Positions 2,584 to 27,380 of a stretch of DNA of 34,705 bases are shown one piece after another. Position 1 is the first letter of the stretch; every line of letters starts with the position of its first letter. The stretch lies in NCBI GenBank assembly GCA_902802535.1, contig CADCML010000021.1, positions 1 to 34,705 on the forward strand, written 5' to 3'. Below the pieces are notes generated by a model. That model made no database searches. It was not told the origin of the DNA and worked only from the letters and a program-made list of their open reading frames with translations. Made by a program: the position numbers and the translations under genes. The stretch is from an uncultured Bacteroidia bacterium. Its GTDB lineage: Bacteria > Bacteroidota > Bacteroidia > Bacteroidales > F082.

Positions 2584-3966
2584 TCAATAGGCGTTTTCAT
2601 CGTGAATGAAAATCGTAGTGAAAGTCTTCCAAATGATTCTAATGTCTAACCAGATGCTCCAATGTTGGATATACCAGATGTCGCGTTCCACACGCCCCTC
2701 CATTTGCCACAGTTCTTTTGTTTCACCCCGAAACCCCGTCACTTGTGCCCAACCAGTCACTCCGGGTTTCACAAAATGGCGAACCATATACTTGTCTATG
2801 AGGAGTGAATACTGCTCGGTATGGGCCAACATGTGAGGTCTCGGCCCCACTATGCTCATATCCCCGCGAAACACATTCCAGAACTGAGGAAGCTCATCAA
2901 TATTCGTTTTGCGCATGAAATTGCCAAAAGGGTATTTGCGAGGGTCATCCTCGGTGGCCTGAAGGCGGTCGGCATCAGCGTTGACATGCATCGAGCGAAA
3001 CTTATACATCCAAAACTCATGACCGTCAAGGCCCGTGCGCCTTTGGCGGAAGAAGATGGGCCCTGGGCTTTGCAGTTTGATTATCAATGCAATGAAAGGA
3101 AACAGCAAGGCGGTAAGCACAAGGCAAAAAGAAGAAGCCACCAAATCAAAAAGACGCTTCACGGCCCTGTTCATCGGATCCTCCAAAGGGCTAATATAGG
3201 TAGTAAATAGTTCCAAATCGTCAAGCATCACGGGTTGCAGATTGATGGCCTCTTCCTGCAACGGAACATAATAGAATTTTACCATTTTCCTGTCACACAA
3301 CGACTCTGTATCTTTGATAATGGAGCGTTCGCTGCGTGGAATGCACATGTATAATTCGTCACCTAAAACCAACTGATCCGGTGCATTTAAAAGCCGGACA
3401 AAGTCATCCAAACCACCTGTTTGCGGCAGGTAGTCCAAAGAGCCATAATAACTGATGACCTTATAGCCCAGGGTTGGGTCTTGCTTGAGTTTATCGTGAA
3501 GTTTGCGCAGTTCCTCACAAGAACCAACCAAAGTGATGGTTCGAGTATTGAAGCCTTTCAGACGCATCAGTTTTAGCAGCCAGCGTTCCAGATAACGCAT
3601 AGGCAGGAACACGGCTAACATTAACACACCTGTAATCAACAGTGGGATACCAACGCGTGCATCAAACTGCATGGCACGCAGCAGAATATATGCAACCAAT
3701 ACTTGAATTAGCACCAGCATTGAAACACGTTTAAGAATACTGTCGACACCCACAAGCCTCTCGTGAATAACAGTGGAAAACCTGGATTCACTGATGACCA
3801 TGGCCACATTGCAAATCAACATGAAAACGCGTTTCTCTTCATCACTACCGCTAAAGAAATTGAACCGCGAGTACAACACCAATACCAGCAACACATTGAG
3901 CATTATAAAATCCCCAACAATAATACACCATTTAATAAGAGAATTTGTACGTGTATTGTTTCTCAT
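2584..3966 (-). CDS. Undecaprenyl-phosphate sugar phosphotransferase (WcaJ/WbaP-like)
   Basis: Polyprenyl-phosphate hexose-1-phosphate transferase of 460 residues. It would start repeat-unit assembly by moving a sugar-1-phosphate from a nucleotide sugar onto undecaprenyl phosphate at the inner membrane. The N-terminal half has about four membrane helices and a CoA-binding-like domain. The C-terminal catalytic domain starts near KRLFDLVASSFCLVL and carries the family signatures SPGPIFFRQRRTGLDG, YKFRSM, DELPQFWNVFRGDMSIVGPRP and KPGVTGWAQVTGFRGET. Length and architecture fit the WcaJ (glucose/galactose) type rather than the short PglC type, but the sugar cannot be read from sequence. It is the last intact gene of the operon, 6 nt after the WecG-type gene, with the ugd scar immediately downstream. 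Confidence 0.93.
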   Translation of the reverse strand: MRNNTRTNSLIKWCIIVGDFIMLNVLLVLVLYSRFNFFSGSDEEKRVFMLICNVAMVISESRFSTVIHERLVGVDSILKRVSMLVLIQVLVAYILLRAMQFDARVGIPLLITGVLMLAVFLPMRYLERWLLKLMRLKGFNTRTITLVGSCEELRKLHDKLKQDPTLGYKVISYYGSLDYLPQTGGLDDFVRLLNAPDQLVLGDELYMCIPRSERSIIKDTESLCDRKMVKFYYVPLQEEAINLQPVMLDDLELFTTYISPLEDPMNRAVKRLFDLVASSFCLVLTALLFPFIALIIKLQSPGPIFFRQRRTGLDGHEFWMYKFRSMHVNADADRLQATEDDPRKYPFGNFMRKTNIDELPQFWNVFRGDMSIVGPRPHMLAHTEQYSLLIDKYMVRHFVKPGVTGWAQVTGFRGETKELWQMEGRVERDIWYIQHWSIWLDIRIIWKTFTTIFIHDENAY

Positions 3967-3972
3967 GACATT

Positions 3973-4701
3973 CTATTTTTTTGTCCGTTCTTTAATGATA
4001 TAACAGATGAATTTCGCATTGCCCACAACATAGCGCCGCCACATGCGACGAGGCTCCATGAGGAAGCGGAAGAGCCACTCTAACGAGTGTTGCTGCCACC
4101 ATAAAGGAGCTCTTTTAGCTGTTCCCGCATAAAAATCAAACACTGCTCCAATAGTTCCGCAGTGACAGTGGATATTTAATTCATTCCAGTGTTTGTAGGC
4201 CCATTTCTCTTGTTTAGGTGCCGTCATGCCAATCCACAGCAAATCAGGATTAGCTGTGTTGATTGCATGCACCATCGCTTGATTATCCTCATCAGAGAAT
4301 TCCGGCTTATATGGCGGAGAATAAGTGACAACCTCAAAATCCGGATAATCAACAGCAACTTGTTTGCGAATCAACGACAGCACCTTCTCGCTTGAACCGA
4401 AAAACATCACTTTTGAGTGCGGTTGCGTTTTCAATCTGTCCATCTCAAGCACGAACAAATCCCATCCAGCAATTCTTTCTATTGGCTGTGAAGAAGCTTT
4501 CAGCCACTGGCAGGCTTTTACAATGGATGCACCATCGGGAATCAAATAGTCTCCTCCACGTAAAGCCTCAGCAAACTCCATGTCCTTTTGAGCTGTGTTG
4601 TAAGAGTGCGCGTTAATGGTGTTGATGAGCATCTTGCCTTGGGGAAGACGCTCCAACTGCTCTCGGGATTCAACTATGAATAAGGTTTTCAGGGTTAGCA
4701 T
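3973..4701 (-). CDS. WecG/TagA/CpsF-family glycosyltransferase
   Basis: GT26 family enzyme of 242 residues (244 if GTG at 4707 is used). Members transfer an N-acetylhexosamine-type sugar, such as ManNAc or ManNAcA, to an undecaprenyl-diphosphate-linked acceptor, giving the second sugar of a repeat unit. Family signatures are INAHSYNTAQ, the LIPDGASIV motif around residue 57, GMTAPKQEKW, and GAVFDFYAGTAKRAP near the C-terminus, followed by the basic membrane-binding tail RFLMEPRRMWRRYV. I chose the ATG at 4701. The GTG at 4707 overlaps the stop of the upstream GT4 as GTGA and is equally compatible with translational coupling. Position next to the initiating transferase fits a role directly after it. 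Confidence 0.9.
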   Translation of the reverse strand: MLTLKTLFIVESREQLERLPQGKMLINTINAHSYNTAQKDMEFAEALRGGDYLIPDGASIVKACQWLKASSQPIERIAGWDLFVLEMDRLKTQPHSKVMFFGSSEKVLSLIRKQVAVDYPDFEVVTYSPPYKPEFSDEDNQAMVHAINTANPDLLWIGMTAPKQEKWAYKHWNELNIHCHCGTIGAVFDFYAGTAKRAPLWWQQHSLEWLFRFLMEPRRMWRRYVVGNAKFICYIIKERTKK

Positions 4702-4703
4702 AA

Positions 4704-5732
4704 TCACGCAATTTCTTCGTATATTCTTGCCACTTGTTGAGTGACGGTTTCGAGGCTGAATTTTTCTGTAGCCATTTTTTGGGATGCTTTGGCCAGTTTG
4801 TTTCGCAAATCCTCGTCCGAAATCATCATTTCCAACTTCTCCGCCAACGCATCCTCATCACCGGGGTTGAACAAAAGCATGTTTTTGCCGTCGATAGCCA
4901 CATCAGGTATGCCGCCTACAGGCGTAGTGATGACCGGAAGGCCGTATGCCCATGCATCCAAAACAGCCATCGGGAAGCCTTCAGCATAGCTGGGGAGACA
5001 TAGGGCTTTGGACTCGCAAAAAACCCGATGTTTGGCTTCGCCACTCACCCAGCCAAGAAGTTCCACTTGTTTCTCTATCCCCAGCTTACAAGCTGTGGCA
5101 CGAGCCTGTTCCACCTCGCCATTGCCAGCAAGGACAATTTTCCAGTCGGGGTGTTGGGGAGCAATCTTGGCGAAGGCATTGATTAGGTCCATGTACCCCT
5201 TGCCCTCATAGAGAGTACCAGAGAACAAAATTTGGTTTTGCTTTCTGTAAGTTGTTGTGTCGGTAATGATTGGGCAAGGATTATAGACTACTTGCAGTTT
5301 GCTTGAATTGCCAATATGATCCTGAACTATTGACTTTAGCCCTTCCGAAAGCAATATTCCGCAATCGGATTTCTCAAACATGTTCTGATAGTTAGCGTTC
5401 CAGACCTCATCTATCTGAGTACCCAAATGCAGGTGAACAACCGTTTTTTTGCCGAACAATTTGGCAAGTTTAAAAAAGAGGTATTTCCGCATGGCTGAAG
5501 GCCTCATGCCCAAATGGAAGTGTACAATGTCATAGAAAGGAAGCAACACCATATATTGCGTGAGCCCTTTGACAAGGTAACAGAATTTGCGCACCATACC
5601 TCCATCACGATGGGTACCAATCCACTGGCATTGGTATTGCCGCCACATCTGGCTTTGCTCATAAAGTTTGAGCACAGCTGTGATGCCGCCACGGGTCTTC
5701 CTGCTTGTTGCTACTACAAGGACTTTTGTCAT
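4704..5732 (-). CDS. Glycosyltransferase family 4 (GT4)
   Basis: GT-B glycosyltransferase of 342 residues, cytoplasmic and membrane-associated, using a nucleotide sugar to extend the lipid-linked repeat unit. The N-terminus has SRKTRGGITAVL, a variant of the usual glycine-rich loop. The C-terminal Glycos_transf_1 domain has ILFSGTLYEGKGYMDLINAF, IVLAGNGE and EGFPMAVLDAWAYGLPVITT. In this last motif the second acidic residue of the usual E-x7-E is Asp. Donor and acceptor are unknown. The start ATG overlaps the stop of an upstream gene fragment (ATGA at 5729-5732). That suggests the original upstream neighbour was a different gene, now mostly deleted. Confidence 0.9.
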   Translation of the reverse strand: MTKVLVVATSRKTRGGITAVLKLYEQSQMWRQYQCQWIGTHRDGGMVRKFCYLVKGLTQYMVLLPFYDIVHFHLGMRPSAMRKYLFFKLAKLFGKKTVVHLHLGTQIDEVWNANYQNMFEKSDCGILLSEGLKSIVQDHIGNSSKLQVVYNPCPIITDTTTYRKQNQILFSGTLYEGKGYMDLINAFAKIAPQHPDWKIVLAGNGEVEQARATACKLGIEKQVELLGWVSGEAKHRVFCESKALCLPSYAEGFPMAVLDAWAYGLPVITTPVGGIPDVAIDGKNMLLFNPGDEDALAEKLEMMISDEDLRNKLAKASQKMATEKFSLETVTQQVARIYEEIA

Positions 5733-5857: not shown

Positions 5858-6649
5858 TTACTTCAAATAAGTTTCCAACAAATGCGTCCTTCTTTTGTCT
5901 TCGGGAGGAAGTTCCATATAGTTACCGTACAATTCCTTTAAATATTCATCATACTTAACTGCACCATATAACAACTTGTCTTCAAATTTATATCTGGTCG
6001 ATAGTTCAAACCAATGGATATGAAAATACCTGTTGGAATAATTTGGATCCATCGGAATAACATAATACTTCCCTGGTATTATAGAATCCGTTAGATGCAT
6101 AATTTTATCATTGATTTTATTGACAGATACTGGGAATAATAATTTGACACTTCTTTTTACAATGTCCTTTATACTGTATTTTTGTCGGGACTGTGAATAA
6201 ATAAAAATACTTGTTCTCATCCAAAATTGTATTTTTCGGACAATATGATAGCATGTTTCTTTATCACAACTAACAAGTGGAAAGATATCAATTGTCAATC
6301 CCGGCATCTTATCTTCGTTAACATATAATGTATTGTCTATAACCTTTGTTTTAACATCTTCCACTTTTATCCACGGGATTTTATAGGTTTCCGAACTATC
6401 GTATGTCAAACAACGCAATTCTAAAGGAAGTTCTTTTTTTAATATTGATATCAATTCTGAATAACGCTGATATGGCACTGCAAAATCCATATCGTCATCC
6501 CAAGGAATAAAGCCTTTATGCCGAACAGCGCCAAGCATAGTGCCAGCTATCATAAACATGGGAATATTATGCTTCTGGCATATCTCATCAACAATGATCG
6601 CAATACCTAATAGCCTTTTTTGAACTTGACACAATTCCAATTGTCTCAT
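5858..6649 (-). CDS. LicD-family phosphotransferase
   Basis: LicD family protein of 263 residues. Family members move a phospho-alcohol from a CDP donor to a sugar; bacterial LicD acts in phosphocholine decoration, and the animal homologues fukutin and FKRP transfer ribitol phosphate from CDP-ribitol. The nucleotidyltransferase-like core is clear: MFMIAGTMLGAVRHKGFIPW followed by DDDMDF (acidic metal site, residues 51-56) and a PGLTIDIFPL segment. It sits 5 nt downstream of an SDR, which in turn overlaps a CDP-forming fusion enzyme. I infer that its donor is the CDP compound made by that cassette. No choline kinase or choline transporter is nearby, which argues against phosphocholine. Base composition is AT-richer than in the flanking housekeeping genes. 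Confidence 0.88.
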   Translation of the reverse strand: MRQLELCQVQKRLLGIAIIVDEICQKHNIPMFMIAGTMLGAVRHKGFIPWDDDMDFAVPYQRYSELISILKKELPLELRCLTYDSSETYKIPWIKVEDVKTKVIDNTLYVNEDKMPGLTIDIFPLVSCDKETCYHIVRKIQFWMRTSIFIYSQSRQKYSIKDIVKRSVKLLFPVSVNKINDKIMHLTDSIIPGKYYVIPMDPNYSNRYFHIHWFELSTRYKFEDKLLYGAVKYDEYLKELYGNYMELPPEDKRRTHLLETYLK

Positions 6650-6654
6650 AATGT

Positions 6655-7350
6655 TTATTTATAACAATAACCACCATTTACTTCGATTAAGCTGCCGTTG
6701 ACAAACTGATTGTCAATACAGAAGCGGAACGCATCCACAATCTCGTCTATTTGTGCAAAACGATGTATGGCGGTTTTCTTATAAATGTTCTGTTTGATTT
6801 CTTCAGGCTTGTCGGCCTGCCAAGGCGTGTCCACAAAACCCGGAACAATGGCGTTCACAGTGGTGCCCGTACCTTCAAACTCTTTTACGAGGTTCTTTAC
6901 CAAGGCATGCACGGCCGATTTGGTTACACCGTAGGCCAGTACCGTCGCGTGCGGATGCAAGCCCATTTGTGAACCCGTGAATAATATTCGTGAACCATTG
7001 GGAATCATAGGGAAAAACTCGCGGCACATGATATAGTGCGAATTGACAGCCACCTCCATCATGGCATCCCACTCGCTATCCCTCATTTCAGTAAAACTTC
7101 TGCGAATGCTTACACCAGCATTACACACCAGGCAATCCAAGTTATCGGTCTTAGATTTCACATAGTTTATGAAACGATATACTTCGTCTCGTTTGGTTTG
7201 GTCTATCTTGTGCGCTTCGAAATTCTCTATTCTTTCCTCAAAATCTGGCCCAACGTATGTCGCAAACACATAATAGCCTTTGTCTATCAGCATTTTGGCC
7301 ACACCCAGTCCCATACCTGATGTGCCACCTGTTACTACAGCATGTTTCAT
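6655..7350 (-). CDS. Short-chain dehydrogenase/reductase (cassette A)
   Basis: Classical SDR of 231 residues. Visible motifs are TGGTSGMG (NAD(P) loop, residues 8-15), CNAGV, the Ser-containing FTGSQMG, and the catalytic YGVTK, with PG after it (IVPGFVDTP). The catalytic triad Ser-Tyr-Lys is complete, so it should be an active oxidoreductase. Its ATG overlaps the stop of the cytidylyltransferase/oxidoreductase fusion by 4 nt, suggesting coupled translation and a shared pathway. A likely role is to reduce or epimerise the sugar or polyol that the fusion enzyme handles. It is only distantly similar to the second SDR at 15050-15781, so the two cassettes may differ in product stereochemistry. Confidence 0.9.
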   Translation of the reverse strand: MKHAVVTGGTSGMGLGVAKMLIDKGYYVFATYVGPDFEERIENFEAHKIDQTKRDEVYRFINYVKSKTDNLDCLVCNAGVSIRRSFTEMRDSEWDAMMEVAVNSHYIMCREFFPMIPNGSRILFTGSQMGLHPHATVLAYGVTKSAVHALVKNLVKEFEGTGTTVNAIVPGFVDTPWQADKPEEIKQNIYKKTAIHRFAQIDEIVDAFRFCIDNQFVNGSLIEVNGGYCYK

Positions 7351-8687
7351 ATTTCAGTAACGTTATCGTGGTTCTTAAACTTCTCAATGACTTCAGCAAT
7401 GGCCACACTCTCTTGTGGACGCAGTTTATAACAGATTTTGCGCTCATTGACTATCATCGAGAGCCATTCCTGTATTTCATAACGCAAACCCTCGCCATCA
7501 TAACTATAGAAGTATTTCTTGTTCTTGGTCTGATCCTCATAACGCACCTCGAAGAAGTCCGTCAGCCACCACGGAGCTGGCACATAGATATAGCCTTTCG
7601 TACCCGACACCACCAAATTGCCTTCTGTCTTCACACCGATACCCAACGTAAAGGAAGCCGTAGCATGAGGATAGTTAATCACACCCTTGGTGTAAATATC
7701 CACTCCATTCTCCATACGGCTATGGAAATTCATGTCGTGCCAGTCGAGTCCCAGCAACTTCATTATTGCCAACAGACATAGCGGTGCGTGTTCGTTCATG
7801 GCACCCCCAGCCTGAGTAGAGTCAAGTTCGCGTGTCGGTGGTAGAACTTGTTTGGATAACGATGCCTTCACATCAACCACATCGCCAATAATACCGCTCT
7901 TCACCAATGTGACAATATGTCCAAAAGCTGGACAGAAGGCGGTTTTGCTTGCTTCCAGCAGCACTAAATTGCGTTCTTCCGCCAAGGTAAATAACTCAAG
8001 TGCTTGCTCTTTTGAAAGGACAAAAGGTATTTCACAAAGCACATGTTTATCAGCTAGTAGTGCATTCTTCACATAGTCATAATGTGTCAAATGTGGGGAT
8101 GCCACATACACCAAATCCACGTTCTGCAAGAACTGGTCATAGTCGTTGTAGGCCTTTAGTCCATGCATTTGTGCGAAAGCCTCCGTTTTATTCGCATCTG
8201 GATTCATCACAGCCGTCACCTCTGCCCCGTTCACCACTTTGCTCTCTGGCACAAAACGGTTGGCGATGCGTCCACTACCAACTATTCCAACTCGATAATT
8301 GACTTGGCTTTCTTCACGCAGCATTGTTGAAGAGATTCCTTCGGTACGAGACAGGTACACCACCTTGCAATACTCGTTCAAATAGTCAAACTTTCCTTCC
8401 CAGTCACTGCCGATAGCGAAAATATCCACATCGTACTTTTGGATGTCGTCAATCTTTTGGCCGAGATAGTCCTCGATGATGACCTCGTCAGCATAGCCAG
8501 TGGCTTTCACGGCCTCAACCCGCTCAAGCACATTGTTGCGCACATTGAGTTTGCCTCGACCTCGGTCGAAACTGTCGCTGGTTACGCCCACTATCAAGTA
8601 GTCGCCCAGTTCTTTTGCCCGGCGAAGAAGATTGATGTGACCTTGATGGAGAAGGTCATAGGTTCCGTAGGTGATAACTTTTACCAT
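7347..8687 (-). CDS. Cytidylyltransferase-Gfo/Idh/MocA oxidoreductase fusion, copy A
   Basis: Two-domain protein of 446 residues. Residues 1-125 match TagD-type glycerol-3-phosphate cytidylyltransferases: GTYDLLHQGH (HxGH nucleotide site at 14-17), DWEGKFDYL, and RTEGISST at 114-121. They should couple CTP to a phospho-alcohol. Residues 131-446 are a Gfo/Idh/MocA NAD(P)-dependent oxidoreductase: GIVGSGRIA at 134-142, YVASPHLTHYDYV, CEIPFVLSKEQA, and a C-terminal substrate domain. The usual EKP lysine is Ile220, in both copies. The fusion implies that one polypeptide both oxidises or reduces a polyol or sugar and activates it as a CDP derivative. The product is unknown; glycerol, ribitol or a related polyol are candidates. 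It is about 80% identical in protein to copy B, with many silent differences. Confidence 0.9.
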   Translation of the reverse strand: MVKVITYGTYDLLHQGHINLLRRAKELGDYLIVGVTSDSFDRGRGKLNVRNNVLERVEAVKATGYADEVIIEDYLGQKIDDIQKYDVDIFAIGSDWEGKFDYLNEYCKVVYLSRTEGISSTMLREESQVNYRVGIVGSGRIANRFVPESKVVNGAEVTAVMNPDANKTEAFAQMHGLKAYNDYDQFLQNVDLVYVASPHLTHYDYVKNALLADKHVLCEIPFVLSKEQALELFTLAEERNLVLLEASKTAFCPAFGHIVTLVKSGIIGDVVDVKASLSKQVLPPTRELDSTQAGGAMNEHAPLCLLAIMKLLGLDWHDMNFHSRMENGVDIYTKGVINYPHATASFTLGIGVKTEGNLVVSGTKGYIYVPAPWWLTDFFEVRYEDQTKNKKYFYSYDGEGLRYEIQEWLSMIVNERKICYKLRPQESVAIAEVIEKFKNHDNVTEI

Positions 8688-8713
8688 AAGGATTTATAAT
8701 TAACATAACGACA

Positions 8714-9817
8714 TTATCGGCCAAAAAACTCCAGGTATTTTTCTGCACATGTCGCAATTGTGTAGGGATTGCCGTCCTTTTTGCCCATGGCTTCTTTTTT
8801 TAGGTTTTGCATGTGTGAATACGAGTATTCAAGTGCAACCAAATAGTCATCGAGTGAAAGGCTTTCGCTCAATATACCATTCTTTTTATTCTCGACCACA
8901 TCAACTGCTCCGCAAACCGGAGTCGAAACAATGGGAATGCCCGCAAGGCAGGCTTCTAAGATCGTAATGGGCATGCCCTCATACTTTGAGGAAAGACAAA
9001 AAGCATCTGCGTTCATCAGATAGTCTCCCACGTTCTTGCGCGTTCCGATAAAGTGAATTCTATCCCCAGCCTTTGATTTGATGGATTCTCCCAACTCGCT
9101 GTCAAACCCGTCGCCAATGATAATCAAATCTGCATCATGACCAGCCTCAACGAATTTAGAAAAAGCTTCCACCAACATTACCTGGTTTTTAACGGGGTTG
9201 CATCGTGCCACATGGATATAAACGAGGCTGTTTGACCTGTTTTTATAAGATGAAATCTCTGTCTTCACCTCTTCAAAATGCGCGGTGGAAACAATGGGTG
9301 CCCTGCCGTTGAGAATACACGCGCCTTTGATTTTGGGATAAGCTTTTATCATGTCGCGATAGTTGGTCTCGCTCAGCGCCACAAATCCCATTTTATTGCC
9401 ATATCCAAGCGTCTTTATTAGGAAACGATAGAAAAATGAAGTGTATCCATTGTTGATATCGCTATGGAAGGTTTGAAAGAACTTTGTTCTTCTGTTGAGT
9501 AGGAACAAGGCCATAATGCAAAACATGGGCATTCCATGCCCATGCAAGTGGGCAACGTCGGCTTTTTCTTTCTTTATCGCTTTGTAAACCCGCCAAACCG
9601 ATTTAGGAATAAAACCTTTGCGCAGCCCGAGATTCTTGTAGGTAACCCTATCCGATACGTCAAACTTGTAAAACTGGGCTTGCTCTGGCTCCACGGAATC
9701 GTCCTTGATGGCCAACAGCGTTACATCATGAGATTTAGAGAGTTCGTTGGACAAGTCCACAGCGAACCTTTCTGCGCCGCCTGGGCGCAAATCAAAAACA
9801 ACCTCAAGAATCTTCAT
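8714..9817 (-). CDS. Glycosyltransferase family 4 (GT4)
   Basis: GT-B glycosyltransferase of 367 residues. The N-terminal half has FDLRPGGAERFAVDLSNEL, the GGAER loop typical of GT4 enzymes, and HLHGHGMP. The C-terminal half has YIHVARCNPVKNQVMLVEAF, LIIIGDGF and SSKYEGMPITILEACLAG (E-x7-E conserved), followed by IPIVSTPVCGAVDVV. It should add one sugar of the repeat unit on the cytoplasmic face; the sugar is not predictable. Its ATG overlaps the WbsX-type gene stop by 4 nt, and fusion copy A starts 26 nt after its stop. Confidence 0.92.
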   Translation of the reverse strand: MKILEVVFDLRPGGAERFAVDLSNELSKSHDVTLLAIKDDSVEPEQAQFYKFDVSDRVTYKNLGLRKGFIPKSVWRVYKAIKKEKADVAHLHGHGMPMFCIMALFLLNRRTKFFQTFHSDINNGYTSFFYRFLIKTLGYGNKMGFVALSETNYRDMIKAYPKIKGACILNGRAPIVSTAHFEEVKTEISSYKNRSNSLVYIHVARCNPVKNQVMLVEAFSKFVEAGHDADLIIIGDGFDSELGESIKSKAGDRIHFIGTRKNVGDYLMNADAFCLSSKYEGMPITILEACLAGIPIVSTPVCGAVDVVENKKNGILSESLSLDDYLVALEYSYSHMQNLKKEAMGKKDGNPYTIATCAEKYLEFFGR

Positions 9818-10920
9818 TTCAAAATCACGTCTTTAAGTGCGTCAAGATAACCATGCCCGAATTTCAAATCAGGTTCCATGTAATTGCCTTCTGCCCATTC
9901 ATTCCAACTTCGCAGAAAAATAATTTTATGTTGATCTGCTTTTTTACTTACGAGCTGTACAGCTTCTTGGACATGCTTCTTAAACAATTCAGGAGTGCTA
10001 TTGTGATATATTGTCGCTCTTCTGCCAGCCCGCGATGTACGGTCATAATTGGGAACTATTTGTGGATAAGCATCTTCCCGTTCATCAAACTTGGTATAGA
10101 AATGCCTAATGATATCAGCATAATTGTATTTATTTAATGGCGTTATTCCAGGAAAGAATTTTCGGATTAGAGATAATGCCATTTTCTTATACTTATTGAC
10201 AACAATAGCCTCTGCCGCCCAATAATTATCCGGAGAAACAGCGTCACATCCTAATTCCAGCACTTTAGGAAAGTTCTCTCTCCATCCTCCTCCAATACCA
10301 ACAAAGTGTATTCCATTGGATAACCCATTTTTTTCTGCCAATGTATTCCATGTATTGATAAATGCTTTGATATCAGGCATATCAAAAGGCGACCATATTA
10401 AAAACAAAGGCTTCCCATCAACAGTAATGTAGCGTTTATCCCTAAAAGCAGGCAAAACATAATCAAAATGAGCAATCATATCCTGTTCTCCAGGATACTC
10501 CTGCAACAACAAATCCATGTCTTTATGCGTAGCTGCATCACTATTCCAAGTGCGTCGAGTCCAACTATGATTAGCCCACCCGAGACAGAACGGGAAATCA
10601 GGCTTACCTGATTTCAGGACATCGTCAAAAATCTCGCTCAACAACATTCTACCGTTTCCAAACCAATAATGCCAATACATGAAACCTTCCACACCAGCCT
10701 CTCGTGCCATTTCGGCCTGTTGTTCCCGAATGATTGGCAATCGAAGGTCATAATAGCCTAAATCGGCTGGAACTCGTGGTTGATAATGTCCACGGAACAA
10801 GGGCTTAGCTTTACCCACATTCGTCCACTCCGTAAATCCTTTTCCCCACCATTCATCATTTTCAGGTATAGGATGGTATTGAGGAAGATAAAATGCAATG
10901 ACTCGTGCTTTTTTATTCAT
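9814..10920 (-). CDS. WbsX-type glycosyltransferase (GH99-like fold)
   Basis: Member of the Glyco_tran_WbsX family (368 residues), common in Bacteroidetes polysaccharide loci and related in fold to GH99-type proteins. Signature segments are AFYLPQYHPIPENDEWWGKG followed by FTEWTNV, GFMYWHYWFGNGRMLL, PFCLGWANHSWTRRTW, and RSWNEWAEGNYMEPD near the C-terminus. Family members are annotated as glycosyltransferases because of genetic context; the catalytic mechanism is not well established. There is no signal peptide, so it should be cytoplasmic. It lies between the polymerase and a GT4 gene, as part of the repeat-unit assembly set. Confidence 0.9.
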   Translation of the reverse strand: MNKKARVIAFYLPQYHPIPENDEWWGKGFTEWTNVGKAKPLFRGHYQPRVPADLGYYDLRLPIIREQQAEMAREAGVEGFMYWHYWFGNGRMLLSEIFDDVLKSGKPDFPFCLGWANHSWTRRTWNSDAATHKDMDLLLQEYPGEQDMIAHFDYVLPAFRDKRYITVDGKPLFLIWSPFDMPDIKAFINTWNTLAEKNGLSNGIHFVGIGGGWRENFPKVLELGCDAVSPDNYWAAEAIVVNKYKKMALSLIRKFFPGITPLNKYNYADIIRHFYTKFDEREDAYPQIVPNYDRTSRAGRRATIYHNSTPELFKKHVQEAVQLVSKKADQHKIIFLRSWNEWAEGNYMEPDLKFGHGYLDALKDVILK

Positions 10921-10935
10921 ATAAAAATATTCTAA

Positions 10936-12297
10936 TTATTCTTCTTGATTTAGTGATACCAGTATTATATCTTCGGAATCAGCATCTCCTTCTGTTTCTT
11001 CTTGTACATCTTCGTCTTGATAACCCATTTCGTTGGCGATAATGAGGGCATAAAAGATTATCATAGCATTAAAAGTATCATAATCACCAGTAAAAAATGT
11101 ATAACTAAAATAAGCAACAAGTAAAATTGATATTGTTCTTTTTAGTTCTGTATTATCTTCAAAATGCTTTGAGACAATTTTGAATACAAGCACAACCATT
11201 ATTCCCCAAACGAGCAAACCCATAATGCCATTGTTGCACAAAATCTGTATCAAACAACTTTCAAATGAAAGCATGGTGGGATGACGGCCTATGGTTGAAC
11301 GATACCATCCCGTCCAACCATAACCAAAGCCAAAAACAGGGTGGTCTTTCAAAGCATTAAAACAACCCTGAAACTGCCCCATGCGCATTCCAACGCTAGA
11401 ACCTAAAACAATCGACTCATCGCCAATAGAATTGAGAAACAATAAATATTCTGGCATAAAATGTTTTATAAATAACCATAAGACAACCACTAAAACAGCA
11501 GCTGTGATAAGCACCCGAAACTGGCGATTATAACACAAATAAACAAATAGGACAATACCTTCGGCCATCAAAACACTGCGAGAACCACAAACAACCACAT
11601 TAATCAACACAAGTCCAAACAACACTTTAGGAATAATGGACGTGTCTCGTTTGAACTGGTAGAGCAAAAACACCGATGAAAAAACCAAAAAATAACCATA
11701 TTCTGTCACATGTGGATACACAGAAGATATATAACCAAACACTCTAATGCCTTCCTCCAACACTTTTTCTTGATCCCTGATGTCATATTCCAAAACAGGA
11801 TTGATAGCATCAATATACGGGTTTTGACCAGGTATCAATATTAGAAAAATACCATACAATGATGCAATCGCTATAGCCAAATACATGGAATAGGTGAAGA
11901 TTGAAGCATTGCGTTTATCATAATCAACAATACTAATAATAGCAAAAGGCAAAAACAATCTCATAATGTCAATCCTAAACACTTTAAACTGCTCAGAAAG
12001 TGGCATTTCAGTGATATGAAAGGGGATAAAAAGTGCTTGGATGAAAAACAAGAACAAAAATGGTGTTAACAAAGAAAAACCTGTCGAACTTATACCTTCC
12101 CTATTTAAAGCCCAAACAAACAACAATAATAATAGAATCAGCGATAGAAGGTTCTCACCAATTTTGAATCCTCCTAAATACAGATAATAGAATGGGACCA
12201 GAAAAAAGATCAATATGTAAATGCCTACTCCCCATTCATATTTCACGAATAATAAGAAAAGACAAAAAAAGGATATAATTGAAATGGCTGTAATCAT
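10936..12297 (-). CDS. O-antigen/capsule polymerase (Wzy-like)
   Basis: Integral membrane protein of 453 residues with about 11-12 predicted hydrophobic helices. It also has a periplasmic loop near FGYGWTGWYRSTIGRHPTML, in the position and style of the Wzy_C/O-antigen ligase domain (FGxGxG...H). It would polymerise flipped undecaprenyl-PP repeat units. The pairing with a Wzx flippase two genes upstream supports Wzy over WaaL ligase. The last 30 residues form a very acidic tail, which is unusual for the family. The ATG overlaps the TagF-like gene by 4 nt. The region is AT-rich compared with the flanking chromosome. Confidence 0.85.
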   Translation of the reverse strand: MITAISIISFFCLFLLFVKYEWGVGIYILIFFLVPFYYLYLGGFKIGENLLSLILLLLLFVWALNREGISSTGFSLLTPFLFLFFIQALFIPFHITEMPLSEQFKVFRIDIMRLFLPFAIISIVDYDKRNASIFTYSMYLAIAIASLYGIFLILIPGQNPYIDAINPVLEYDIRDQEKVLEEGIRVFGYISSVYPHVTEYGYFLVFSSVFLLYQFKRDTSIIPKVLFGLVLINVVVCGSRSVLMAEGIVLFVYLCYNRQFRVLITAAVLVVVLWLFIKHFMPEYLLFLNSIGDESIVLGSSVGMRMGQFQGCFNALKDHPVFGFGYGWTGWYRSTIGRHPTMLSFESCLIQILCNNGIMGLLVWGIMVVLVFKIVSKHFEDNTELKRTISILLVAYFSYTFFTGDYDTFNAMIIFYALIIANEMGYQDEDVQEETEGDADSEDIILVSLNQEE

Positions 12298-13496
12298 AAC
12301 TTTGTAGTGATAAAATTGATAATGCTAGATATATCTCCTGGACAATCGTAATATTTATTTGTAGAAATAAGCTTGATAGAAATGTCGGGAGCGCGCATAA
12401 GAGTTGTAAGTTCTTGATAATTCTTTGCTTCAGAAAGCGATTTTAATAGTTCTATGAAACCCTTGAAAATATAGCGAGACTTGGCGGTATATTCTTCTAT
12501 ATCAAAATCATAGATAATGACAGGCTTATGCATTAAGGCAAAATCAAACATGATGCTCGAATAATCTGTAATTAATCTATCAAACAAAGGCAACAAAGGA
12601 TAAATATCCAAGCTGTTATCCAAAACTTGAATGTTAGAATAACCAAACCCTGTAGGTAATGGAGTAATTCGATGAAGTTTCAAATACAATACGATATTAG
12701 TTGCTTTCAAAAAACTATTAAACTCGTCCCAATCAGGTATAGCCCTATAGATATAATTCGGGTCGGCATCTCGGAAAGTAGGCATATAAATAATTTTTTG
12801 CCTTGATTCCGCTTTTAACTCGTTATACATGCGTACACCCTCAGGAACTTCATACTTCACAACAAAATCATCTAATTCTGTATTTGTCATATACAAGGTA
12901 TGACATCTCGGTTGGTCTGATATTATGATGTTCTCAATAGGCACTTGGAAAGCAGCTGACATCACATTAGATAAATTTCTACTTGTAGCAAGCACATAAT
13001 CTCCATAAACATGACTATGAACATACTTATAATGAAAAGTTGAAGATATAATGTAAGGTTCCGGAGGATCATTCCGTATCTGACCAATTCTTTTTGCTAC
13101 TGTTACACCATGCCACAGCTCAAATCTAACTGCTCCTTCTGAAAGCTCATGTGAAGCAAATTCATCAATGCGGTTATCATAAATTACCATACCAGCTCGA
13201 TATAACAACCTGCGACCTTCAACCGAATTTGATTTTGCACACTCAAAACCCAAACTCCGAACCCTTTGCAGCACTTCATCATTGCGTGAAAGCCACACGT
13301 GACGATAATTTGGCAATGCTTTATTATTATAAATAAACAAATGTTTAGCGTTATCAATAAAGAGGTCTAAAGCACCACCATACACTATCAAATTATTGTC
13401 ACGCTTATGCAAAGACACAATTGCCCGCAATAGATTACTTTTTATATTAAGTATTTTTCTTTTAACTCGAAAGGATAGCTTTTCTTTTCTTATCAT
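12294..13496 (-). CDS. CDP-glycerol glycerophosphotransferase-family protein (TagF-like)
   Basis: A 400-residue protein with the GT-B fold of the TagB/TagF/TarL family, which transfers glycerol- or ribitol-phosphate from CDP-polyol to a sugar or polyol chain. Key residues are present: His129 in ELWHG, YMPTFRD near 238-243, His275 in YLKLHR, and the LITDYSSIMFDF motif at 308-319 followed by KPVIIYDFDIEEY. The two histidines correspond to the catalytic pair described for TagF. It lacks the long N-terminal extension of true teichoic acid polymerases, so adding a single phosphopolyol per repeat unit is more likely than building a poly(polyol phosphate) chain. Two CDP-forming fusion enzymes in the same operon provide plausible donors. 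Confidence 0.88.
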   Translation of the reverse strand: MIRKEKLSFRVKRKILNIKSNLLRAIVSLHKRDNNLIVYGGALDLFIDNAKHLFIYNNKALPNYRHVWLSRNDEVLQRVRSLGFECAKSNSVEGRRLLYRAGMVIYDNRIDEFASHELSEGAVRFELWHGVTVAKRIGQIRNDPPEPYIISSTFHYKYVHSHVYGDYVLATSRNLSNVMSAAFQVPIENIIISDQPRCHTLYMTNTELDDFVVKYEVPEGVRMYNELKAESRQKIIYMPTFRDADPNYIYRAIPDWDEFNSFLKATNIVLYLKLHRITPLPTGFGYSNIQVLDNSLDIYPLLPLFDRLITDYSSIMFDFALMHKPVIIYDFDIEEYTAKSRYIFKGFIELLKSLSEAKNYQELTTLMRAPDISIKLISTNKYYDCPGDISSIINFITTKL

Positions 13497-15025
13497 CTTT
13501 GCCTTTTAACTCGATTTTGAAAAATCTTTATTACGGACATTTTTTCATTTTTAGACAACCCAATGGTCATAATAGACATTACCAAAATTGTAGTCGTCAG
13601 TATCACAAATAAAATAAGCCCAAGAAACGAATCTGGAATTGCATTATTTAGAAGGATGCTAATCCCTGTGGTGATTATCATTACTATTACAACTGGCAAC
13701 ATTGTCTTTTTTAAGTAGTTTTTCACATCGAAATCCGCAATTCTTTTCAGAAAAACCATTTGTAATATCCAACGTATTATATGAGATACAAATAGAATAT
13801 AATAAGCAATTTCTGGACTCATTCCAAGTTTTAAGGCTATCCATACAAAAGGAAATACAAGTAAGGCCAATGAACCAGCTACCAACTGATAATCTCGTAT
13901 TTCACCTGTAGCTAACATTAGGTAATACAATGGCGTTGAAAGCGCATTCATAGTAATAATAAGGAAAGAAAGACGCGTAAACAAAACTGCATAGTCTGGA
14001 ACCGTTTTCAACCATATCATCAATACAAATTCGGTTCGTAGAGACAATGGTATTACAAAGAGCATCGTTAGATACATGACCAACTTTGTACCTTGATTGA
14101 CAAGGTTGAAGCATTCCTCATATTCTTGAGCTGCGTATGTTTTGGTGATTTGAGGACGAATAGCAGTTGTAAAACTATTAACAAATTGATTGACCGCATT
14201 GTCAACTTGCGATGCCACTCCTCGGCCTGCATTCACAAGTACACCACAAAAGATATTCAACAAAACATTAACGCCTTGATTTGATAACACTGTAGCTGTA
14301 CTACCAATAAAATTCCACCCTACAAAACCTCCCATTTGTTTATAGGCTGAAAATCGGGTTTCCAACTTGAAACGGCACTTGTCAATGAACTTATGACGGC
14401 AATAAATGAAATTTAACGAGAATACCGCAAAAGCGACAATGCCCATACTTACTGAATAATAAATCAATTTATCGGAGAAAGCTACAAGGAGAAGGAGGGC
14501 AAAACCAAGTTTCAAAAGCACCTCTACTATGCTGATAACTGCAAACACTCCCATTCGTTCCTCCGCAATGATTAGAGCATTGTAAGGTATGGTTATCAGT
14601 TGCAATATGAACGCTAATGTGGAAAACTGAAAAACCCAATTTGCCGCCGCCATACGACCTTCCGGCAAGTTCATATAATTATTTAAAAACCAAACACCTA
14701 TTATTTCCGCAATAAATAATATGACTATACCGATAAGGAGATGTATACCAAGAGAAAGCGAAAATATGTATGAAGGGTTTCCGTCTTTTTTTCCCAATTC
14801 AAATGATATATAACGTTGAGTGGCAGCCACAAGACTACCACTTACCAACGCAAACATCCCTACCATTCCACCAACAGCATTATATACACCATAATCACTT
14901 ACACCAAGAATATTCAGAATTAGACGAGATACATAGAGTGAAACGAACATAACTATAATAGTACGTCCGTACAACAAGACAGTGTTTTTGGCTAGTCTTT
15001 TTTTATCACTATTGTTTTGGCTCAT
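13493..15025 (-). CDS. Polysaccharide flippase (Wzx-like)
   Basis: MATE/polysaccharide-synthesis superfamily transporter of 510 residues with 12-14 hydrophobic helices. It starts with the typical RLAKNTVLLYGRTIIVMFVS, then LYVSRLILNILGVSDYGVYN, and continues with VGGMVGMFALVSGSLVAATQ. It should move the undecaprenyl-diphosphate-linked repeat unit from the cytoplasmic to the periplasmic face. Its stop overlaps the start of the TagF-like gene by 4 nt, and an SDR gene ends 24 nt upstream. Confidence 0.93.
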   Translation of the reverse strand: MSQNNSDKKRLAKNTVLLYGRTIIVMFVSLYVSRLILNILGVSDYGVYNAVGGMVGMFALVSGSLVAATQRYISFELGKKDGNPSYIFSLSLGIHLLIGIVILFIAEIIGVWFLNNYMNLPEGRMAAANWVFQFSTLAFILQLITIPYNALIIAEERMGVFAVISIVEVLLKLGFALLLLVAFSDKLIYYSVSMGIVAFAVFSLNFIYCRHKFIDKCRFKLETRFSAYKQMGGFVGWNFIGSTATVLSNQGVNVLLNIFCGVLVNAGRGVASQVDNAVNQFVNSFTTAIRPQITKTYAAQEYEECFNLVNQGTKLVMYLTMLFVIPLSLRTEFVLMIWLKTVPDYAVLFTRLSFLIITMNALSTPLYYLMLATGEIRDYQLVAGSLALLVFPFVWIALKLGMSPEIAYYILFVSHIIRWILQMVFLKRIADFDVKNYLKKTMLPVVIVMIITTGISILLNNAIPDSFLGLILFVILTTTILVMSIMTIGLSKNEKMSVIKIFQNRVKRQR

Positions 15026-15049
15026 TATACAAAAAACAGATACATTTAG

Positions 15050-15781
15050 TCATCTAATACTACTTAGTTTATAATCATAACTATGAGCCCCCTCTTTGCG
15101 AAAGTCGTTGTGATATCTTTGCAATACTTCCTTGAAAACTTCATCATATTTTGGGATGAAAACATCGTCTTTATTCTCCATGTGTTGTATAATTTCACAT
15201 GACAAATCATGAAGAATAGCAAGGTCGTTTTGTCCTGCATAAAAGTTTGTTCCTTTTATATTGCCTGGAGATACATTTAATATCACATTTTTTGAGCCAG
15301 CTTTTCGTAACTCTACATTTACACTCTCGATAAAGATTTTCAATGCCGCCTTAGTTGCTCCATAAACCGCAAAAAAAGGTGAAGACATCCAACCAGAAAT
15401 GCTGTCCATTACACCACAATAAAAATCATCTTTTCCATCCAACTTCCCATAGAAGCGTTTGATGAGCCGTAATACTGGGATTGTGTTAACATTAAACGAA
15501 TCTATAATATGTTGTTCTGAAACATTTTTGAATAAAGCTAATTTGCCAAAACCTGCTGTAATCATTAATGCATCAATATCAGAGAAACGATCAAAGAAGG
15601 AATAGTCTTCTGTTCTAAGGTCGAAAAGGAAACCTTCAATTTTTGGATGATTATATTCCTCAGCCATTGCAGCTTTGTCAACGATATAGACTTTTTCCGT
15701 TGAATCGCGAACAGCCAATTCAGTTGCTATGGCTAATCCAATACCGTTGGAACCTCCAACTATCAATATTCGCTTTATCAT
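15050..15781 (-). CDS. Short-chain dehydrogenase/reductase (cassette B)
   Basis: SDR of 243 residues with GGSNGIG at residues 9-15 (the usual Thr is replaced by Gly), ITAGFG in place of NAG, Ser in MDSISGW, and YGATKAAL with the catalytic Tyr and Lys. It belongs to a different SDR subgroup from the one at 6655-7350. Its ATG overlaps the stop of fusion copy B by 4 nt, repeating the arrangement of cassette A. I infer that it acts on the substrate or product of copy B. The C-terminal 50 residues (HMENKDDVFIPKYDEVFKEV onward) are less typical of classical SDRs and may form a substrate lid. Confidence 0.88.
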   Translation of the reverse strand: MIKRILIVGGSNGIGLAIATELAVRDSTEKVYIVDKAAMAEEYNHPKIEGFLFDLRTEDYSFFDRFSDIDALMITAGFGKLALFKNVSEQHIIDSFNVNTIPVLRLIKRFYGKLDGKDDFYCGVMDSISGWMSSPFFAVYGATKAALKIFIESVNVELRKAGSKNVILNVSPGNIKGTNFYAGQNDLAILHDLSCEIIQHMENKDDVFIPKYDEVFKEVLQRYHNDFRKEGAHSYDYKLSSIR

Positions 15782-17118
15782 ATCTCAGTCACATTTTCTC
15801 CATTATTATATTTTCCAATAATCTCAGCAATTGCCTCACTCTCCCTGCGACATAGTTTATAACAACTGCGACGATTATTCACTATCATTGAGAGAAACTC
15901 CTGTATTTCATAACGCAGTCCCTCGCCATCGTAGCTGTAAAAGAATTTCTTGTTCTTGGTCTGATCCTCATAGCGCACTTCGAAGAAGTCGGTGAGCCAC
16001 CATGGGGCAGGCACATATACATAGCCCTTGGTACCAGATATCACAAGATTCCCCTCCGTCTTCACACCAATTCCTAATGTAAACGAAGAAGTGGCGTGTG
16101 GATAGTTAATAACGCCTTGAGTATAAATATCGACACCATTCTCTTTCTTGGTGTGAAAACTCACATCATGCCAATCAACACCTAACAGCCTCACAATAGC
16201 CATCAGGCAGAGTGGAGCATGCTCGTTCATCGCACCTCCAGCTTGAATAGGATCAAGTTCGCGAGTCGGTGGTAATACTTGTTTGGACAGCGAAGCCTTC
16301 ACATCGACAACGTCACCAATGATTCCACTCTTCACCAATGTAACGATATGTCCGAATGCCGGACAATAGGCCGTCTTGCTAGCTTCCATCAGAACCAAAT
16401 TGCGCTCCTCGGCCAAACGGTAAAGTTCCAAAGCCTGCTCTTTACATAGCACAAAAGGTATTTCGCAAAGCACATGTTTGTTGGCCAAAAGGCAACATTT
16501 CACATAGTCGTAATGTGTCATATGTGGTGAAGCGACATAGACAATATCAACCTGATGAATGAAGGAATCGAAATCAGAATATGCTTCTATACCATGTTTT
16601 ATCGCAAAACATTTAGACTCTTTGGCATCAGGATTGAACACGGCTTTCACCTCCACGCCGTTCACCACTTTGGTTTCTGGTACAAAGCGGTGAGCAATAC
16701 GTCCACTGCCAATGATTCCTAATCTGTATACTTCTTGACTTTCCTCACGTAGCATAGTGCTACTAATGCCTTCTGTGCGTGGCAAATAAACCACCTTGCA
16801 ATACTCGTTCAGATAGTCAAACTTACCCTCCCAATCGTTGCCAATGGCAAAGATGTCAACATCATATTTCTGAATGTCATCGATTTTTTGTCCAATATAA
16901 TCTTCAATGATCACTTCATCGGCATAACCGGTGGCTTTCACAGCTTCCACTCGCTCCAACACATTGTTTCTGACATTCAGTTTGCCACGTCCACGGTCAA
17001 AACTGTCACTAGTGACCCCCACTATCAAATAGTCGCCCAGACTCTTTGCTCTCCTCAAAAGGTTAATATGACCTTGATGCAGTAAGTCGTAGGTGCCGTA
17101 TGTGATGACTTTTATCAT
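15778..17118 (-). CDS. Cytidylyltransferase-Gfo/Idh/MocA oxidoreductase fusion, copy B
   Basis: Same length (446 residues) and domain order as copy A at 7347-8687. The TagD-like domain has HQGH (14-17), DWEGKFDYL and RTEGISST. The oxidoreductase domain has GIIGSGRIA, YVASPHMTHYDYV and CEIPFVLCKEQA (EKP lysine again replaced by Ile). The cytidylyltransferase half and the C-terminal catalytic face are almost identical to copy A. Differences cluster in the Rossmann region at about residues 145-195 and at the extreme C-terminus. Codons differ at many silent positions, so the copies are old or were acquired separately. It is the first gene of the operon. Confidence 0.9.
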   Translation of the reverse strand: MIKVITYGTYDLLHQGHINLLRRAKSLGDYLIVGVTSDSFDRGRGKLNVRNNVLERVEAVKATGYADEVIIEDYIGQKIDDIQKYDVDIFAIGNDWEGKFDYLNEYCKVVYLPRTEGISSTMLREESQEVYRLGIIGSGRIAHRFVPETKVVNGVEVKAVFNPDAKESKCFAIKHGIEAYSDFDSFIHQVDIVYVASPHMTHYDYVKCCLLANKHVLCEIPFVLCKEQALELYRLAEERNLVLMEASKTAYCPAFGHIVTLVKSGIIGDVVDVKASLSKQVLPPTRELDPIQAGGAMNEHAPLCLMAIVRLLGVDWHDVSFHTKKENGVDIYTQGVINYPHATSSFTLGIGVKTEGNLVISGTKGYVYVPAPWWLTDFFEVRYEDQTKNKKFFYSYDGEGLRYEIQEFLSMIVNNRRSCYKLCRRESEAIAEIIGKYNNGENVTEI

Positions 17119-24270: not shown

Positions 24271-25203
24271 TTATTTGCTGTTTTTAAACAAAAACTCCTT
24301 TTCTTCCTGCGTCAGGCTTCCATAGCCATTCTTGGCAATTTTGTCCAAAAGGGCATCCACATTTCGCTCTTTTTCAGCCCGTTGACGGTTATACTCTCCA
24401 TCATTGCGCGGCACTTCATCCTTGACCTCTTCATAGCGGGTGTATTTCATTTTCTTCTTGCCCATCTTGTCCTTCCTACTCCAGAACCATCCCTTCCATT
24501 TCTTCAAATCAAAGTTGGGTCCGCTCAAGCCATTCTTCTTCCAGTACAGAATCAGTATCAAGCCAAAGAGCATACCTCCAAGGTGGGCAAAATGAGCTAC
24601 GTTGCTTCCACCCGACAAGCCGCTGACAAGTTCAATGACTGCATACCCAATGACGAACCACTTCGCCTTGATGGGAAACAGGAAATACAAGTAAATCATG
24701 GAGTTGGGGAACATCATGCCAAAGGCCAAAAGCAGACCATAGATGGCTCCCGACGCGCCTACGGTGTTCATCATGTTGAGGTAACTCGACATCGGGATGA
24801 TTTGACCACCAGTGTTCACCGTAGCATAATCGGCCAAAACAGTGGTGTATTGGATGTATTGCACCAGTTCCTGACACAAACCAGCACCGATTCCGCACAC
24901 CATGTAAAACAACAGGAAACGCTGCGAACCCCAAATGTTTTCAAGCGTGTTGCCGAACATCCACAAGGCAAACATGTTGAAAAACAGGTGCCCGAAATTG
25001 GCGTGCATGAACATGTAGGTAATCAGTTGATACACCCTGAAATCGGTAGCTTTGAAGAAATGAAGACCCAAAATGTCGGTCAAATCGATGTTGAAACGTT
25101 CCAAAGTAAAGGTAGCCAAAAACATCAACACATTGATAATCAACAAATGCTTTACCACAGTAGGTAACACTCTAAATCCAGTAGGGCTGTATTGTTCGTT
25201 CAT
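24271..25203 (-). CDS. Rhomboid-family intramembrane serine protease
   Basis: Protein of 310 residues with six or seven membrane helices. The active site is visible: HxxxN (His72, Asn76) in GHLFFNMFAL, the nucleophile Ser151 in GASGAIYG, and His207 in AHFAHLGGM. It cleaves helices of membrane proteins within the bilayer. A charged cytoplasmic tail of about 85 residues follows (KKWKGWFWSRKDKMGKKKMK onward). A second, small rhomboid-like gene often follows in this phylum, but here the EEP-family gene does. The ATG overlaps the mutL stop by 4 nt. Confidence 0.93.
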   Translation of the reverse strand: MNEQYSPTGFRVLPTVVKHLLIINVLMFLATFTLERFNIDLTDILGLHFFKATDFRVYQLITYMFMHANFGHLFFNMFALWMFGNTLENIWGSQRFLLFYMVCGIGAGLCQELVQYIQYTTVLADYATVNTGGQIIPMSSYLNMMNTVGASGAIYGLLLAFGMMFPNSMIYLYFLFPIKAKWFVIGYAVIELVSGLSGGSNVAHFAHLGGMLFGLILILYWKKNGLSGPNFDLKKWKGWFWSRKDKMGKKKMKYTRYEEVKDEVPRNDGEYNRQRAEKERNVDALLDKIAKNGYGSLTQEEKEFLFKNSK

Positions 25204-27011: not shown

Positions 27012-27014
27012 ACC

Positions 27015-27323: not shown

Positions 27324-27342
27324 AGTATAGAATTAGGATTTG

Positions 27343-27350: not shown

Positions 27351-27380
27351 GAAAAAAATTACAACTCACACGACATGTTA

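Follow-up and report, generated by a model that had tools for sequence, protein, structure and literature searches.

In a family of proteins that join a TagD-like cytidylyltransferase to a Gfo/Idh/MocA-type (Gfo) reductase domain, the absence of one lysine from the reductase domain goes, strikingly, with the presence of a separate gene for a short-chain dehydrogenase (SDR) or an aminotransferase. Two such fusions, FUS1 (7347..8687, minus strand) and FUS2 (15778..17118, minus strand), lie in the 34,705-nt stretch of contig CADCML010000021.1 (assembly GCA_902802535.1) analyzed here, hereafter the window, which comes from an uncultured Bacteroidia bacterium of the Bacteroidales lineage F082. Both lack the lysine, and each is followed by the gene of a different SDR, SDR1 (6655..7350, minus strand) behind FUS1 and SDR2 (15050..15781, minus strand) behind FUS2.

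The fused Gfo domain and its partner genes

Both fusions are 446 residues long. Pfam places CTP_transf_like at residues 5-125 in both and GFO_IDH_MocA at residues 132-243 in one and 132-245 in the other; the TagD-like part spans residues 1-126 and the Gfo part runs from residue 131 on. The end of each fusion gene overlaps its own SDR gene by 4 nt (ATGA), SDR1 and SDR2 belong to two distinct families, and the starts of FUS1 and FUS2 are separated by 8431 nt in a run of 13 co-directional genes. An earlier reading made from the letters alone (the sequence-only reading) had described two 446-residue TagD-like/Gfo fusions, each overlapping a different SDR by 4 nt and lying 8.4 kb apart in one operon, as parallel CDP (cytidine diphosphate)-activation cassettes with divergent SDRs. 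The open reading frame lengths, domain assignments, junctions and distances agree with this description, and the cassette picture is supported. Its estimate of about 80% identity was close, the measured protein identity being slightly higher (84.5%; 96% in the TagD part and 80% in the Gfo part), and the span that it gave, 7347..17118, contains both fusions and SDR2 but leaves nearly all of SDR1 outside its start.

In an alignment of FUS1 and FUS2 with dimeric dihydrodiol dehydrogenase, the EKP-motif lysine and its partner tyrosine, which we take to be the catalytic proton relay of related Gfo reductases, corresponded to Ile220 and Leu303 in both copies. The fold neighbors of the FUS1 AlphaFold2 model (pLDDT 91.4, pTM 0.79) detected by Foldseek include 3evn, 2o48 and KijD10, and also the nucleotide-sugar enzyme GnnA. 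The K102 and Y186 mutants of KijD10 are present in the PDB matches; among the matches listed, KijD10 was not mentioned in the open-licence papers sought on its mutants.

GTDB genomes were searched with TagD-domain peptides, and the best 80 of at least 541 related stretches were kept; the larger number may include stand-alone TagD and is thus no count of fusions. A full-length fusion frame is present in 79 of these 80 loci (numbered with the prefix L), one of them shortened at its end (L059, 407 aa), and L109 is partial. Duplicates (L104, L191, L196, L202), partial fusions (L109, L201), a broken fragment (L189) and standalone Gfo or TagD frames were excluded before counting, and 127 unique fusions were compared. 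The lysine at position 220 is kept in 34 of them and lost in 93, and lysine and tyrosine are both kept in 29. Four Lys-bearing fusions (L173, L174, L175 and L176) are followed by a standalone Gfo paralogue, with the EKP lysine kept in the paralogues of L174, L175 and L176.

Four partner families were distinguished: SDR1; SDR2; AT-V, a class V aminotransferase nearest to the AEP-transaminase and BhcA models and under their cut-offs; and AT-I, a HisC/CobD-like aminotransferase, also under cut-off. Y140 and K144 are invariant in 19 SDR1 and 25 SDR2 sequences, which carry the GxxxGxG and YxxxK motifs of PF00106. PDB 3f0h, named only 'Aminotransferase', is a close relative of AT-V (E 2e-148). None of the PDB matches of the SDRs and aminotransferases was convincing as a characterized enzyme naming a substrate, and a fold search with SDR2 (AlphaFold2 model, pLDDT 90.6) returned general SDRs only.

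A partner gene on the same strand within 2.5 kb accompanies 83 of the 93 Lys-less fusions vs. 3 of the 34 Lys-bearing ones. Within 150 nt the counts are 71/93 and 2/34, and within 6 kb 89/93 and 5/34, although the 6-kb count takes in distant or weak matches, such as the SDR1-like genes 5.3 kb from L187 and L188, that the 2.5-kb count excludes. These two fusions (L187:9085-10392, L188:9495) are very divergent and long-branched, with degenerate Gfo motifs, a LicD gene directly next and no SDR or aminotransferase adjoining. The 4-nt overlap between fusion and SDR recurs in 15 SDR1 and 18 SDR2 cases among the 127 fusions, the window pair counted. Four Lys-less fusions have no partner within 6 kb: L094 lies at a contig end, L195 has a broken SDR2, and L076 and L183 are considered below. 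In L195 (9388-10119, plus strand) SDR2 is interrupted by stops while the ATGA overlap with the intact fusion is kept, and the same genome holds the SDR2 cassette L047.

In the held-out set, all five evaluable Lys-less fusions have a partner. The lysine is replaced by Ser beside AT-V on the Ruminococcus albus 7 plasmid and in L213 and L214, by Ser beside AT-I in L215, and by Arg in L212, where an SDR1-like partner overlaps the fusion by 4 nt. The sixth, L216, has Ser at this position and is cut by a contig end.

Several points weigh against the reading that a separate partner has taken over from a fused domain without its lysine. The partner profiles derive mostly from neighbors of Lys-less fusions; therefore, 52 of the 58 listed immediate neighbors of Lys-bearing fusions (a list of proteins of up to 900 aa that lie clear of contig ends) were scanned against Pfam. 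Among the matches listed, LicD (8), Glyphos_transf (6), GDPD (5) and Gfo (4) are the commonest, SDR is found twice, and there is no aminotransferase in the 25 of 48 Pfam families listed for these 52 proteins. The Lys-bearing L110 and L180 adjoin an SDR1-like gene and L120 has AT-I, while the Lys-less L076 and L183 are unexplained; SDR1-like genes also lie 3-5 kb from the Lys-bearing L116 and L164. All six held-out fusions are Lys-less, so that they test one side of the link. On the fusion tree the state of residue 220 changes only twice, so the link between lysine and partner amounts to one or two events and is not independently replicated, and an independent-pairs test of lysine loss vs. partner found 1-2 usable pairs and had no power. 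Tyr303 is retained by 41 of the 93 Lys-less fusions and the Gly-rich nucleotide motif by 79, the window copies included (GSGRIA in both). Residues E148, P221, G362, G365, W373 and W374 are present in 127/127 fusions, and the Gfo domain is not decaying; because the rest of the domain is so highly conserved, it still does something, perhaps redox.

The sequence-only reading had taken the fused Gfo domain for a working reductase beside the SDR. The catalytic lysine and tyrosine are gone in both window copies, and across the family the absence of the lysine tracks a separate partner, so that view is not supported; since both copies lack the proton-relay residues, two reductases per cassette is probably wrong. 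The missing residues suggest that the Gfo domain of the Lys-less fusions no longer acts in redox chemistry. A third reductase of ~350 aa beside the fusion was also considered and rejected, the proteins inspected being mostly aminotransferases and otherwise membrane or transferase proteins.

Partner exchange and the role of the fusion

Between SDR and aminotransferase partners, 5 switches were counted on the tree among 94 fusions (shuffled mean 28.4, lowest 21 in 300 shuffles). SDR1 and SDR2 switch often, with weak clustering: 16 switches among 59 fusions (shuffled mean 19.8, as low in 52 of 1000 shuffles), or 12 among 46 when the subset with a strong, adjacent SDR was taken (shuffled mean 15.6, as low in 48 of 1000). 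The fusions of L035 and L048 are 96% identical, with SDR1 behind one and SDR2 behind the other, and their blastn match extends from 2 nt ahead of the fusion start to the fusion stop codon. L052 carries SDR2 and then SDR1 in tandem behind a single fusion, and L114 a short SDR1-like frame plus SDR2. From these data, the fusion seems indifferent to SDR1 or SDR2 and seems tuned to reduction vs. amination. Such a pattern is expected of a fusion that provides a shared activated intermediate, or a platform for binding, and leaves the choice of product to the partner.

We propose that a Wzy-type surface polysaccharide receives one CDP-activated small alcohol from each cassette, as follows: (i) the TagD domain, judging from its family and its invariant residues, would join cytidine monophosphate to a phosphorylated small carbonyl or alcohol; (ii) the translationally coupled partner, not the fused Gfo domain, would convert the carbonyl, a reduction that the Gfo domain itself would perform in the Lys-bearing relatives; and (iii) LicD, behind SDR1, and a TagF-like transferase, behind SDR2, would put the CDP-linked products on the glycan. 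Steps (i) and (ii) could take place in either order. SDR1 and SDR2 would yield two different alcohols, probably stereoisomers, from a common intermediate, and aminotransferase partners would yield an amino-alcohol. The sequence-only reading had foreseen two related CDP-linked compounds; near-identical fusions that differ in being followed by SDR1 or by SDR2 fit this. We give about even odds to a fusion that takes care of CDP activation and binds the substrate, with the plug-in enzyme deciding between alcohol and amine. More tentatively, the fusion might be a modular platform, its Gfo domain retired as a reductase and kept as a substrate dock into which four enzyme families (two SDRs and two aminotransferases) plug, so that the plug-in would settle which of two alcohol isomers, or an amine, the gut bacterium puts on its surface.

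Alternatively, the Gfo domain, though devoid of both lysine and tyrosine, may oxidize a CDP-alcohol to a CDP-ketone, which the SDR or aminotransferase would then reduce or aminate to give epimers or amines. Such a two-step redox route would suit a domain that is strongly conserved and keeps its Gly-rich motif in 113 of the 127 fusions, and whose nearest solved folds include the nucleotide-sugar enzymes KijD10 and GnnA. A Gfo enzyme with an aminotransferase is, moreover, a known type of pair in nucleotide-sugar pathways (WlbA/WbpB with WbpE). It is mostly the fusions with a partner, however, that lack the lysine usual for such chemistry, and the Gly-rich motif is also lost in 14 of the 127 fusions, 11 of which have a partner within 2.5 kb. 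We consider this route rather unlikely.

The exchange data also bear on whether the two SDRs do different things. The 16 switches lie near the shuffled range but lean to clustering. SDR1 and SDR2 could be isofunctional, which counts against our proposal; both cassettes would then make the same CDP-alcohol, and their co-presence would stem from recombination of variable polysaccharide loci. Frequent exchange is also expected when an enzyme is replaced by an equivalent one, and the same account suits a genome with two copies of which one has a broken SDR2 (G1172; L047 and L195) and another with three SDR2 cassettes (G1183). It sits less well with two non-orthologous SDRs that are intact in the window operon, and again behind the one fusion of L052, or with the different transferases that follow SDR1 and SDR2 in the window. 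Three of the six other multi-copy genomes have one SDR1 cassette and one SDR2 cassette (L048/L197, L049/L198, L122/L203), although chance could give as many. We judge isofunctional SDRs to be an improbable explanation.

Whether the type of transferase tracks the type of SDR was considered and rejected: both SDR classes and AT-V alike are accompanied by LicD and Glyphos_transf, so the pairing of LicD with SDR1 and of TagF with SDR2 in the window is not general.

The word 'duplicated' in the sequence-only reading implied a tandem duplication diverging toward a new specificity. An approximately unbiased test does not reject FUS1 and FUS2 as sisters (p 0.184), but FUS1 falls in a five-row clade (99/99) that excludes FUS2, and each copy matches a copy from a different genome slightly better (87 and 86% identity) than it matches its companion (84.5%). 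The two genes share 74.6% DNA identity with a dN of 0.11, and the NG86 method returned no dS, which we interpret as saturation and which therefore argues against a recent tandem copy; the SDRs, too, come from different families. A duplication of this kind is very unlikely. That a chimeric metagenome contig joined the loci of two strains is scarcely credible even for a draft genome of 85% completeness and 6.3% contamination, given copies that are 75% identical in DNA, too unlike for easy assembler crossover, and genes that form one unbroken co-directional run.

The operon and the distribution of the family

The 13 genes, all on the minus strand, extend from 17118 to 2584; neighbors overlap or lie no more than 125 nt apart, and the gene content suggests an operon for a Wzy-type surface polysaccharide. 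FUS2 and SDR2 (243 aa, with a Gly-rich motif and Y140/K144) stand first. They are followed by a flippase-like membrane protein (Wzx; 13493..15025), assigned from sequence and context without a Pfam match; a TagF/TarF-like CDP-glycerol:poly(glycerophosphate) glycerophosphotransferase (12294..13496, PF04464); and, by Pfam, a Wzy/O-antigen ligase-like polymerase (10936..12297), a WbsX-family glycosyltransferase (9814..10920) and a GT4-type glycosyltransferase (8714..9817). FUS1, with the same domain order as FUS2, and SDR1 (FabG-like, 231 aa, with TGxxxGxG and Y140/K144) come next, and a LicD-family phospho-alcohol transferase (5858..6649) begins 5 nt downstream of SDR1. The run ends with a second GT4-type glycosyltransferase (4704..5732, Pfam) and, by profile match, a WecG/TagA/CpsF glycosyltransferase (3973..4707) and a WcaJ-like undecaprenyl-phosphate sugar phosphotransferase (2584..3966), the putative initiating enzyme. 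Genes resembling the flippase-like gene are also present in other fusion loci. GC content is 0.33-0.45 within the operon (window positions 6000-17000) vs. 0.43-0.55 across most of the flanks, which is usual for exchanged polysaccharide loci. Farther away, positions 25200-33999 hold genes for MutL, an outer-membrane beta-barrel protein and a DUF349 protein, with tRNA-Ser and tRNA-Pro genes at 33798-33999.

By the record titles of the best 80 stretches, fusions occur in Bacteroidales families, Fibrobacter, Clostridia and Lachnospiraceae; among the matches listed, the nearest named relatives of the window genome are rumen Bacteroidales. A full-length fusion was found in 12 of 148 other relatives (10/89 within the genus and 2/59 beyond) and in 6 of 392 further genomes from the order (E 1e-70), and in none of 394 other genomes sampled across the phylum (E 1e-60). 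Matches were obtained in 28 of 295 genomes from the order of the Lys-bearing L126, including at least two partial ones, and in 6 of 287 from the order of L117, also Lys-bearing, where a contig end cuts one of them. The family is thus patchy yet widespread in gut and rumen Bacteroidales, Fibrobacter and Clostridia, as expected of variable polysaccharide loci.

Copy number was counted in 61 of the 80 genomes behind L047-L126 (E 1e-60). Six of these 61 have two or three copies, on separate contigs or 172 kb apart, one second copy (G1186) being cut by a contig end; genome G888 has one fusion with the lysine and one without. Two copies per operon, taken as a general pattern, were not seen in these 61 genomes searched whole. 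No paper on the fusion was found in the open-licence literature, covered mostly as titles and the starts of abstracts, and the earlier suggestion of an undescribed route stands to that extent, no characterized homologue of the fusion having been found there.

Substrate and comparison with known systems

In the TagD domain, H14, G16 and H17 (HxGH), Lys46, R114, T115 and S119 are invariant in 127/127 fusions, and Arg44 replaces the Lys44 of TagD in all of them. The RTxGIS region reads RTEGISST in the window copies vs. RTEGISTT in TagD. Solved glycerol-3-phosphate cytidylyltransferases are the best PDB matches of the domain, and the TIGR01518 scores of the two copies (124.6 and 129.3 bits) lie under the equivalog cut-off of 165.4. 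The domain family and its invariant residues suggest cytidylyl transfer. Compared with TagD/TarD, the fusions share HxGH, Lys46 and the Arg of RTxGIS but are sub-cut-off, carry Arg44 for Lys44 and are joined to Gfo. In glycerol-3-phosphate cytidylyltransferase, Lys44 and Lys46 contact phosphates, according to the accessible text of the report (PMC8262930). Taken together, the TagD domain, the SDR, LicD and the TagF-like transferase point to a CDP-linked polyol as the product.

The most economical substrate would have three carbons, at the level of dihydroxyacetone phosphate, and would give CDP-glycerol enantiomers or CDP-serinol, a suggestion that we make tentatively. GDPD-like (glycerophosphodiester phosphodiesterase) genes lie within ~5 kb of 15 of the 34 Lys-bearing fusions vs. 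2 of the 93 other fusion loci, the 15 including some near-copies and one 64-aa fragment. Two things weigh against the suggestion: all strong GDPD cases are in Clostridia, so the link is confounded by taxon, and, to our knowledge, ordinary sn-glycerol 3-phosphate needs no dedicated SDR. Within the order of L126 the GDPD counts are 11 of 19 Lys-bearing (L163-L181) vs. 0 of 7 Lys-less (L182-L188) fusions. In the same order, L190 (9028-10905, minus strand) and L204 (5847-7832, minus strand) encode a Gfo domain of the same type, with the lysine kept, fused to GDPD.

The AT-I partner is HisC-like, as Cj1437 of Campylobacter jejuni presumably is, and hints weakly at a three-carbon substrate. Cj1437 makes (S)-serinol phosphate from dihydroxyacetone phosphate, according to the part of the report available (PMC11800397). 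The glycerol-3-phosphate cytidylyltransferases Cps3B and Cps7B, in the text accessible, accept both glycerol phosphate enantiomers (PMC8262930), so the identity of the isomer can be set by the supply enzyme. On the R. albus 7 plasmid pRUMAL01 (L205, NC_014824.1) the gene order is LicD, class V aminotransferase, Lys-less fusion, LicD, GNAT acetyltransferase and LicD, and the GNAT gene near this cassette (RUMAL_RS18340/RS18345) would fit an amine product. The plasmid comes from an annotated isolate, and Xylanibacter muris (L083) has a locus of the AT-I type. The loci L040, L050 and L066 also carry an IspD-like cytidylyltransferase (Pfam checked for L050), accompanied in L040 and L066 by a gene that looks epimerase-like by eye, possibly a second CDP-polyol pathway of known type.

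If our proposal is correct, one partner gene beside the fusion could partly predict surface-polysaccharide chemistry, and the family would clearly illustrate how a catalytic domain within a fusion can lose its activity and have its step carried out by separate, exchangeable enzymes. Were the platform reading true, it would also provide a first route to CDP-amino-alcohols, CDP-serinol for instance. Such compounds, like enantiomeric CDP-glycerols, would be useful as donors in the in vitro synthesis of defined capsule glycans.

Among known systems, KijD10 and dimeric dihydrodiol dehydrogenase share their fold with the fused Gfo domain (Foldseek and sequence), but the window copies have Ile and Leu where these enzymes have the catalytic Lys and Tyr, as aligned to dihydrodiol dehydrogenase. 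PDB 6pd1/6pd2, which we take to be PntC-AEPT of Treponema, joins a nucleotidyltransferase to a class V aminotransferase related to AT-V, whereas in the fusion family the aminotransferase has a gene of its own. The likeness of AT-V to AEP transaminases raised a phosphonate (AEP) pathway, which was rejected: no phosphonate gene was recognized by eye in 14 neighbor clusters of fusion loci, nor any PEP (phosphoenolpyruvate) mutase in the sequence starts of these clusters.

The Bcs1-type CDP-ribitol synthase of Haemophilus influenzae carries a cytidylyltransferase domain of IspD type and a reductase on one chain, and the Lys-bearing fusions would be its convergent equivalent. The domain families differ, PF01128 being absent from both window fusions by Pfam, unlike what is expected of a Bcs1-type enzyme; and the window combines a fused reductase domain devoid of the catalytic Lys and Tyr with a separate SDR.

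In the two-gene pathways described in the accessible part of one report (PMC10918830), HS5.18/HS5.17 form CDP-6-D-glucitol in C. jejuni HS:5 and Mnp1/Mnp2 form CDP-mannitol in Streptococcus pneumoniae 35A, the two reductases giving different isomers from the same CDP-6-fructose. Like the window cassettes, they combine a cytidylyltransferase with one separate NAD(P)H reductase. Their enzymes belong to PF01128 and PF01370, in contrast to the TagD-like PF01467 domain fused to Gfo and the PF00106 SDRs of the window. By this analogy, the cassettes would work like two-gene CDP-polyol pathways in which the protein families differ at both steps.

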